Position numbers and translations under genes: made by a program. From Atopobium sp. UBA1382 (lineage in GTDB: Bacteria > Actinomycetota > Coriobacteriia > Coriobacteriales > Atopobiaceae), in NCBI GenBank assembly GCA_002305805.1, contig DBQY01000015.1:88513-152512 (forward strand): a stretch of 64,000 nucleotides of DNA, given 5' to 3'. A model generated the notes under the pieces. That model did no database searches and was not told the origin of the DNA. It worked only from the letters and a program-made list of their open reading frames with translations. This document shows, piece after piece, positions 9,645 to 62,029 of this stretch. The stretch's first letter is position 1, and every line of letters begins with the position of its first letter.

Positions 9645-10307
9645 CTAGCGTGAGCTGGGCGACGGGACGATGACGTCATAGCGAACGGCCTTTCCCGCAA
9701 TCGAATGGCTCGGCTTGGCGCCGGCGAGCCACGGACCCTTGGGCGGCCGCTTGATCACAATCTTGCGCGGGCGCGCAGCGAGCGCAGCGTCCAGCAGCTC
9801 CTCCTCGTTGTCGCACGGACGCTCCAGATGATGCAGCAGCTGGAACTTCTTCTTCACCGCAGCGCTCTTCGTGCGCTCGGGAAACATTGGGTCCAGGAAC
9901 ACCACATCGGGCGAGAAGTCCAGCTCGCGCAGACCCGCCACCGAGTCACCCTCCACCAGCGTCATGCGCGCGGCGACTCCCGCGAGCTGCGGATCGCTTG
10001 CTGCCCGCTCGAGCGCGTCACGCAGAAGGGCCGCAATCACCGGATCCTTCTCGAACATCGTAACTGTGAAGCCCGCCGCGGCCAGAAGTAGCGAGTCCTC
10101 CCCGAGCCCCGCTGTGGCGTCGACCGCCGTTGGAGCCTCCACTCCGCGCACGCGCGCTGCCCGCACGAGCAGCTCGCGCCCCAGGCGGTCGGGTCGCAAC
10201 CGCGGCAGCAGGCGCATAAAGTCCGCGCGAAGGACCATGCCGTCGCCAACGAGCGCCAAACCCTCGTCGTCACGCCGCAGCCCGAGTCCCCCGACAGCTC
10301 CCCCCAT
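9645..10307 (-). CDS. rsmJ: RsmJ-like 16S rRNA (guanine1516-N2)-methyltransferase
   Basis: The 220-residue protein has the SAM-binding [18 protein letters not shown] motif (about residues 63-80), the family's catalytic [16 protein letters not shown] stretch, and [15 protein letters not shown] near the C-terminus, all characteristic of the YhiQ/RsmJ family. In E. coli this enzyme makes m2G1516. The start at 10307 is reasonable, but an internal ATG at 10238 is also possible. It is divergent from the DUF1275 gene across an unusual repeat region. Confidence 0.88.
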
Positions 10308-10330: not shown

Positions 10331-10554
10331 CAAAACGGCCTCTCGTGCATCATTGTCGCAATTCCAAATTCAAAACGGTCTCTCGTGCAACATGATTTCT
10401 CGCAAATAATGGCTCGCGAAGAAACACTTTCAGAAAAATCCCAGTTCGCAATATCAATTCTCTATTCGAATTCACTCAAAGCCACAAGACGCTGTTGCAC
10501 GAGCGGCCGTTTTGGATTGAGGCTGTTAAAAATGTCGCACGAGCGTCAGTTTTG
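10331..10554. repeat. Four-copy inverted motif element (copy A) in a divergent intergenic region
   Basis: Two forward copies of a 19-bp motif (CAAAACGGCCTCTCGTGCA at 10331-10349; CAAAACGGTCTCTCGTGCA at 10371-10389) lie exactly 40 bp apart. Two reverse copies (10496-10514 and 10536-10554) are also exactly 40 bp apart. The 106-bp AT-rich centre contains CCCAGTT-N3-AATAT at 10440-10454. The same layout recurs at 61805-62029. The element fills the 325-bp gap between rsmJ and the DUF1275 gene. Function is unknown. Confidence 0.85.
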
Positions 10555-10632: not shown

Positions 10633-11319
10633 ATGGAGACAGCGGAAGCGGCCGTCACGCCCAAGATTCCCGTGAGGTTGGGGCTCACCGTCATCTGCGC
10701 CGGCGGGTTCATGGACGCGTACTCGTACCTGCTGCACGGCCAGGTCTTTGCCACCGGGCAAACGGGCAACATCGTGCTGCTCTGCATGAACCTCGCCGAG
10801 GGGGCATGGCTCGGCGTGGCCCGCTATCTCGCCTCGATCTTTGCATTCGTGCTCGGCGTCATGCTCTCGCGACACGTGTTGGTGCGCGTTCATGGTAGGG
10901 CGACGCACCGCATGCAGCGTTGGGTGGCAGTCTTCGAGGCGGTGGCCTTCGCCGCAATCGCGCTGCTCCCCGCATGGACACCAGACCTCGCGGTAAACGT
11001 CGCCATTTCGTTCTGCGCGGCAATCTCCTACGAGAACTTTCGGCAGTTCGGAACGAAGTCTGCCTACGCGAGCGTCTTCTGCACCGGCAACCTGCGCTCC
11101 CTTGGAGAGACGCTCTACGACGGGCTCTTTGAGGGGGACCGCCACGAGCTGCATCGCTCCCAGCGCTACGCGGGCCTCATCCTCTCGTTTTGCGTGGGCG
11201 CCGTGATCTGCAAGTTCCTCATCGACCTCGTGGGCCAGTACGCCTGCCTGGCAATAAGCGCGCTCTTCCTGCTGTCACTGCGCTTCATCGCGGAGCCCAC
11301 AACCGGCCCTGCGGAGTGA
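10633..11319 (+). CDS. YoaK/DUF1275 family membrane protein
   Basis: A 228-residue protein with about six transmembrane helices. Family features are the N-terminal CAGGFMDAYSYLLHGQVFATGQTGNIV segment (glycine/asparagine-rich first helix pair) and the internal repeat around SYENFRQFGTKSAYASVFCTGNLRSLGETLY. The family occurs widely and its function is unknown. The start ATG at 10633 has AGGGGA upstream. It ends 3 bp before the convergent B3/B4-domain gene, with no terminator between them. Confidence 0.85.
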   Translation: METAEAAVTPKIPVRLGLTVICAGGFMDAYSYLLHGQVFATGQTGNIVLLCMNLAEGAWLGVARYLASIFAFVLGVMLSRHVLVRVHGRATHRMQRWVAVFEAVAFAAIALLPAWTPDLAVNVAISFCAAISYENFRQFGTKSAYASVFCTGNLRSLGETLYDGLFEGDRHELHRSQRYAGLILSFCVGAVICKFLIDLVGQYACLAISALFLLSLRFIAEPTTGPAE

Positions 11320-61804: not shown

Positions 61805-62029
61805 CAAAACGGTTGCTTGTGCGGCGTTGGGCCCTGCTTGAGAATCAAAACGCTCGTTCGTGTGGCGCAGATTTCCCGTATTTCGTCACCCATGGCTTCG
61901 ATTTTTTAGGTTTGCCCAGTTGAGAATATGTGTCTTTGAATCATTTTGCTGTTGCGATTCAAAATCACGCTACACGAGTCAGCGCTTTGATTTTGAGGCC
62001 AGAGTTTTGTAGCACGAGAGCCAGTTTTA
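61805..62029. repeat. Four-copy inverted motif element (copy B) in a divergent intergenic region
   Basis: Forward motif copies at 61805-61823 (CAAAACGGTTGCTTGTGCG) and 61846-61864 (CAAAACGCTCGTTCGTGTG); reverse copies at 61971-61989 (TACACGAGTCAGCGCTTTG) and 62011-62029 (AGCACGAGAGCCAGTTTTA). Offsets are 41 and 40 bp, with a 106-bp centre that contains CCCAGTT-N3-AATAT at 61915-61929. Layout and centre match the element at 10331-10554. It lies between thrH and the glutaredoxin gene; the remainder of 61714-62107 holds no gene. Confidence 0.82.

Follow-up and report, generated by a model that had tools for sequence, protein, structure and literature searches.

A 64,000-nucleotide stretch of the Atopobium sp. 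UBA1382 genome (GenBank assembly GCA_002305805.1, contig DBQY01000015.1, positions 88,513 to 152,512; hereafter the window) contains two intergenic elements, each composed of two forward and two reverse copies of one site around a central loop. Based on a comparison with related genomes, we moderately favor the interpretation that these elements are chromosomal docking arrays for a sequence-specific, nuclease-like DNA-binding protein of ~331 amino acids (aa). Such a pairing would connect a rapidly evolving protein family that has no name with a DNA element whose geometry is fixed and whose alphabet changes. The natural set of protein-site pairs could show how specificity evolves, and the arrays may represent a new type of system for chromosome breakage or looping in gut Actinobacteria. 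Among the matches listed in the open-licence literature (titles and the starts of abstracts), none described the element.

Four-site elements in the window and in the host genome

The original prediction described two forward and two reverse copies of a 19-bp motif with 40-bp steps and a 106-bp gap, and the coordinates agree with it. Element 1 spans 10331-10554, with 106 bp (10390-10495) between its forward and reverse 19-bp copies and with the reverse copies ending at 10514 and 10554, exactly 40 bp apart. Copies 1 and 2 are identical to the 19-mer first reported, copy 3 carries one mismatch, and copy 4, by eye, four. At up to three mismatches the window holds three matches to the 19-mer, compared to 0.03 expected by chance, and none of 100 shuffled sequences reached three. 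The claimed recurrence 51 kb away is real, as element 2 spans 61805-62029 with reverse-strand matches at 61972-61989 and 62012-62029, but it is less regular, having a 41-bp left pair and a degenerate site M3. These results confirm that both window elements are real, far beyond chance. The true site length is ~23 bp, with the form (T/G)CAAAAC-N5-CTCGTG followed by a CAACAT-like or ATGAA tail.

10331..10353, forward strand: element 1, outer left site M1 (site matching and direct reading)
10371..10393, forward strand: element 1, inner left site M2, starting 40 bp after M1
10435..10470, forward strand: element 1, asymmetric core AAAATCCCAGTTCGCAATATCAATTC..., at the common register
10492..10514, reverse strand: element 1, inner right site M3 (site matching and direct reading)
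10532..10554, reverse strand: element 1, outer right site M4, 40 bp from M3
61805..61827, forward strand: element 2, outer left site M1 (site matching)
61846..61868, forward strand: element 2, inner left site M2, starting 41 bp after M1
61910..61945, forward strand: element 2, core GTTTGCCCAGTTGAGAATATGTG...TTGAATCATT (core model)
61967..61989, reverse strand: element 2, inner right site M3, degenerate (site matching)
62007..62029, reverse strand: element 2, outer right site M4 (site matching)

A search of the full genome and its relatives had been proposed, with an absence of further copies named as the outcome that would speak against the element; the opposite was found, ~14 elements in the host genome and many in related genomes. 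The host genome (G000; 2.0 Mb, 23 contigs) contains 29 matches to CAAAACNGNCNCTCGTGC at up to one mismatch (13 forward, 16 reverse), compared to none for the reversed control, and together with weaker partner sites these form 14 four-site elements. Eight are of type A, with a tail like CTCGTGCAACAT, and include both window elements; the other six are of type B, with CTCGTGATGAA. In the 12 elements displayed, the type is uniform, with variants, over all four sites. Lone site-like matches without partner sites also occur within coding genes at L014 ~3043 and L016 ~2996 (G000 C19).

Phased geometry and a fixed core in related genomes

The comparative set consisted of 109 elements from G000 and from a scan of named genomes (among the matches listed), mostly Olsenella- and Thermophilibacter-type Atopobiaceae, with single records labelled Leifsonia, Coprenecus, and Lachnospiraceae. 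The set used for geometry omits 18 loci that were duplicated or short (L001-L008, L022-L031), and it holds element 2 twice (window, L021); the core analysis again used 109, with L021 taken out and L024 put in. Scanned loci have one 40-bp spacing by construction, while the other pair was free within 38-42 bp and was found at 40 or 41; within-pair spacings were 40 + 40 bp in 90/109 elements and 40 + 41 bp in 19/109. Sites 1 and 3 were 157-160 bp apart in 31 elements, 167-169 in 72, 177-179 in five, and 188 in one, so that the values cluster near 158, 168, 178, and 188, in steps of about one helical turn. The same gaps were seen with one element per position (n=59). Elements beyond the 109 gave distances of 148-149 (G091, G092), 170 (G084), and 201 bp (G110).

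The asymmetric core is roughly RWWWNSCCAGNTNANNNNATAA with AATCAAA downstream. Of the 95 elements in which it is clear, 90 have it 41-42 bp from one inner site, the distance on the other side being 37-38, 46-48, or 57-58 bp. Among 28 elements adjoining the partner gene described below, 17 belong to site families that were not used in building the core model. The best core match fell in the expected register in 10 of these 17, but only three reached p 0.05 against shuffled sequences; a short front of the core therefore seems common to the families and the rest family-specific. The phased distances and the fixed core offset strongly support the original suggestion that the element is a helically spaced site dedicated to DNA binding or folding.

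Changing site sequences at the yaaA position

The gene yaaA was found in 29 of the 31 genus genomes, and an element lies downstream of it in 21. Twenty of these score 104 or more; that of G096 scores 84 and is also supported by L121 in the 109-element set. By eye, their sites fall into about a dozen families, such as CTCGTGCAACAT, CTCGTGATGAA, CTCGTGTGATG, CTCGTGCCACAA, CTTCAGTCCATGG, CTTGGTGCGAA, CTAAGTGCGAC, and GGGATAGTGCGAA. The same design, with site CGAACTGCCCTTCGTTACA, was present at yaaA in two of three genomes examined from genus g34, one of the two without site 4. The four-site geometry thus persists between species while the putatively recognized letters change. In the orthologous elements L066/L094 and L043/L077 the interiors can be aligned (71-74%) and the site families differ; therefore, sites can change in place.

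Elements can also be lost, or two of different families can lie next to each other (G097, G084, G091). Some elements have perfectly matching inverted arms (G091; G090 L277), and by eye the loop at yaaA is inverted between G086 and G098; together, these features suggest sequence copying between element arms. In T. provencensis (L131:3693-3918 and just downstream) two adjacent elements belong to different families, one having matching inverted arms including the spacer and the other lacking one site.

The TerB_N/TerB_C protein adjoining the yaaA element (L010:3244-4764, G000 C8) was considered as the site-binding protein and dropped; a gene on the corC side fitted better, and the TerB_N protein matches PADLOC SngA (E 1.1e-72), a part of the Shango defence system. 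In another genus (L184:9770-9960, G018), tandem near-palindromic repeats CCCACAGAAGCTTTTGCGGGTG are found near yaaA.

A candidate partner protein

The candidate partner gene of G000 lies outside the window; its neighbors are a flavoprotein gene and a corC-like gene, and an array of its own adjoins its 3' end. Close orthologs of its ~331-aa product are encoded in 26 of the 31 genus genomes (E 2.4e-69 or better) and in genera g34, g24, and g28; the other five genus genomes have distant paralogs only. A four-site element is located near the 3' end of the gene in 28 of 30 ortholog loci fetched, at ~0-40 bp where coordinates were compared.

No match was obtained for three family members in Pfam, two in NCBIfam, or two in PADLOC, and a few weak Pfam matches occurred among 41 homologs. 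The modelled fold resembles, at modest scores, Rv2827c (AbiEi family) over residues 1-180 and the Vsr/EDxHD nuclease fold in the C-terminal part; absences in this fold comparison carry no evidential weight. The N-terminal model A2 has a predicted local distance difference test (pLDDT) score of 65.8. Residues E187, D232, H249, and D258 are invariant in 41 sequences and are candidate catalytic residues, the putative counterpart of the EDxHD motif. The family has no name; this undescribed and rapidly changing nuclease-like protein probably binds the arrays.

Linkage of the candidate partner protein and the sites

The site family beside the partner gene is, by eye, the same as that at yaaA in 16 of 20 genomes, and differs in G085, G086, G092, and G104. 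The ~331-aa protein evolves fast, being 56% identical between G000 and G098, compared to 83% for YaaA. The closest YaaA to that of G098 is in G086 (92%), and between these two the first 66 residues of the partner protein are 93% identical and the remainder 49%. The remainder of the G098 protein, along with its sites, is nearest to G099. A DNA comparison gives low identity (51-73%) across most of the gene and the element, with 88-100% in the sequence on either side. Gene body and element thus look to have been exchanged together as a cassette in one species, the site type differing with them. Likewise, G085 and G103 share a 96% identical later protein part and matching sites, and neither is nearest to the other by YaaA. 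Site sequences tend to follow the partner protein.

The yaaA element was present in 21 of 25 genomes with a partner ortholog and in none of four without (Fisher p 0.003, not corrected for relatedness). Sampled stretches were trusted only when the score was well above that of a control spacing, which gave 10 candidates at 84 or more in G090 and none in G087, and at 88 or more two in G088 and one in G111. In these 400-kb samples, genomes with the ortholog contained three (G090) and five (G111) elements of this type; genomes without it contained one diverged element (G087) and none (G088).

Proposed mechanism and comparison with known systems

In the mechanism that we propose, each ~23-bp site would be bound by one protein molecule, and four bound molecules would pair across a bent loop, setting their nuclease domains over the core. 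The protein would then most likely nick or break DNA at the arrays, or wait there to do so, so that recombination would reshuffle arrays and gene; this last step is the least certain. A DNA-breaking role is a first guess, made because of the conserved candidate catalytic residues, the putative arm copying, and the apparent cassette exchange, and regulation or chromosome folding are its close rivals. Six of eight partner-gene orthologs in g34 (G114-G118, G121) contain internal stop codons and the elements beside the broken genes look intact, which the mechanism does not explain; nor does it account for a protein serving the six type B elements of G000.

The AbiEi antitoxins of the Streptococcus agalactiae abiE system and of Mycobacterium tuberculosis (Rv2827c) bind ~23-bp repeats as monomers; in the Rv2827c promoter there are four such repeats, arranged as two inverted pairs whose gaps exceed those of abiE by 10 bp (PMC7319586). 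The site length of the arrays is similar, in addition to the likeness of residues 1-180. In contrast, AbiEi repeats are separated by 3-13 bp and sit in the promoter of the operon that encodes the antitoxin itself, whereas the sites analyzed here have starts 40 bp apart, surround a ~106-bp loop, and are found on the 3' side of the gene and at ~14 places. At the one locus scanned (G000), the genes adjoining the partner gene encode an ODP/flavodoxin protein and a CNNM/CorC protein, with no DUF1814 nucleotidyltransferase toxin beside it. The EDxHD homing endonucleases and Vsr resemble the partner protein, at modest scores, in the modelled C-terminal fold, and also in having long non-palindromic sites and a gene adjoining such sites; unlike them, the arrays are many, fixed, dispersed, and four-sited, no intron or intein was seen, and cleavage is putative.

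Looped complexes of the GalR-HU or lambda type also have phased sites, loops of whole-turn lengths, and a bend or core motif whose offset is fixed, whereas these arrays are dispersed beside unrelated genes and their recognition sequence varies between close species. A lambda-type attachment site differs further, as no arm-type integrase was seen in G000 or G086: each of these genomes has two PF00589 matches, which read as XerC- and XerD-like, and an arm-type tyrosine integrase was rejected for these genomes. PRDM9 recombination hotspots likewise combine a fast-evolving recognizer with dispersed sites whose sequence changes with it; the arrays, in contrast, are bacterial, keep a four-site geometry at conserved places, and have only a putative link to recombination. 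A broader scenario, which we consider unlikely, is that Coriobacteria maintain self-linked nucleases of fast-changing specificity, with phased four-site arrays at their own gene and at fixed hot spots of the core chromosome, where breaks drive gene conversion, arm homogenization, loop flips, and cassette exchange, as a bacterial counterpart of PRDM9-type hotspots or homing.

Genomic placement and alternative explanations

The flanking genes of element 1 are as follows.

9645..10307, reverse strand: left neighbor, SAM-dependent methyltransferase (PF04445)
10633..11319, forward strand: right neighbor, DUF1275 protein (PF06912)

Genes around the elements were called by a simple codon-usage caller, which missed some, including the partner gene at L015. 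None of the 109 elements overlapped a called gene by more than 60 bp. Where both flanks were called (102 elements), their orientations were ++ in 35, -+ in 32, -- in 28, and +- in seven, i.e., 32 divergent, 63 tandem, and seven convergent pairs, and core orientation showed no bias with respect to gene direction. The original idea of a bidirectional module for divergent genes is thus not general, and a directional promoter was dropped as a candidate. The median distance to called genes, 66-78 bp, would suit ordinary transcription-factor operators, at which a regulator loops DNA upstream of ~15 genes while the nuclease fold stays idle; loop-forming operator layouts are well known. We regard this explanation as rather unlikely, since the neighbors are unrelated and mostly housekeeping genes (e.g., isocitrate dehydrogenase, DNA ligase, YebC, EngB; most names assigned by eye), orientation is free to the point of convergence, the candidate catalytic residues are invariant, and element 1 has no sigma-70 promoter match.

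Both flanking genes are common to an element in another genome in 73 of 109 cases (23 clusters). Interior identity at the same place in different genomes reaches 99% (median 56%, 99 pairs), and 519 same-genome pairs gave a median of 53% and a maximum of 76%, so no near-identical copies were found among them; shuffled sequence gives 49%. Elements thus frequently occupy corresponding positions across species and are not recent copies of each other. This bears on the suggestion of a small mobile element, for instance a non-autonomous one resembling a miniature inverted-repeat transposable element, with two transposase sites per end and a spacer of fixed size. The terminal inverted pairs, the families differing per genome, the adjacent elements of different families in G084 and G091 (one short of a site), and the 73-76% likeness of some G105 and G108 interiors are consistent with it. 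We nevertheless find it quite improbable, given that the other same-genome interiors are near the shuffled level, that flanks are shared across genomes, that sites, core, and phasing are retained where the interior is saturated, and that inspection of 12 flanks by eye revealed no target-site duplication. A cassette of gene and element nevertheless appears to have passed between lineages.

Very unlikely, in our view, is an inverton whose loop flips between the inner sites and switches neighbors on or off. The inversion at yaaA fits this, as do four inverted cases among 31 resolvable ortholog pairs (96 compared), but the other 27 keep the same orientation, element 1 lacks a promoter match, and the two tyrosine recombinases found in G000 and G086 read as XerC- and XerD-like (serine recombinases were not searched). 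Moreover, template switching between inverted repeats is another route to loop inversion. That the inverted arms form a terminator or belong to a structured RNA gene is scarcely credible, and this reading was rejected: the 62-nt arms are 73% complementary and one weak terminator-like stem is present, but the window has no Rfam match at gathering scores, facing sites agree at 60-63% of five degenerate positions compared to 55-57% for other pairs, and phasing by helical turns is a property of DNA. A viral origin was set aside, with no matches in viral contigs for two patterns.

Arrays near distant paralogs

Among eight distant paralogs in sampled stretches, clear arrays were seen near L271 (both sides) and L297, an array with three matching sites near L304, a weaker one near L173, and none near the other four. 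At L271:7264-8995 (G090), the paralog gene lies between inverted arrays of another class, with spacing 41 and site TGCGNNATNGGGGTTRTGGCA. Further array classes, CTGAAAAACGAGGCTGTGGCAC and TTTGGAAAAGCCCGCGCGTTGC, occur in G111 (L304, L319, L320). In genus g22 (G043; L177, L208-L213), we found 81 related sites CTGAGRAAAGTCGANNNNTGGCA at up to two mismatches, many of them in phased arrays, with spacings of 41-43, 52-53, 62-63, 73, and 94 bp in the G043 stretches read.
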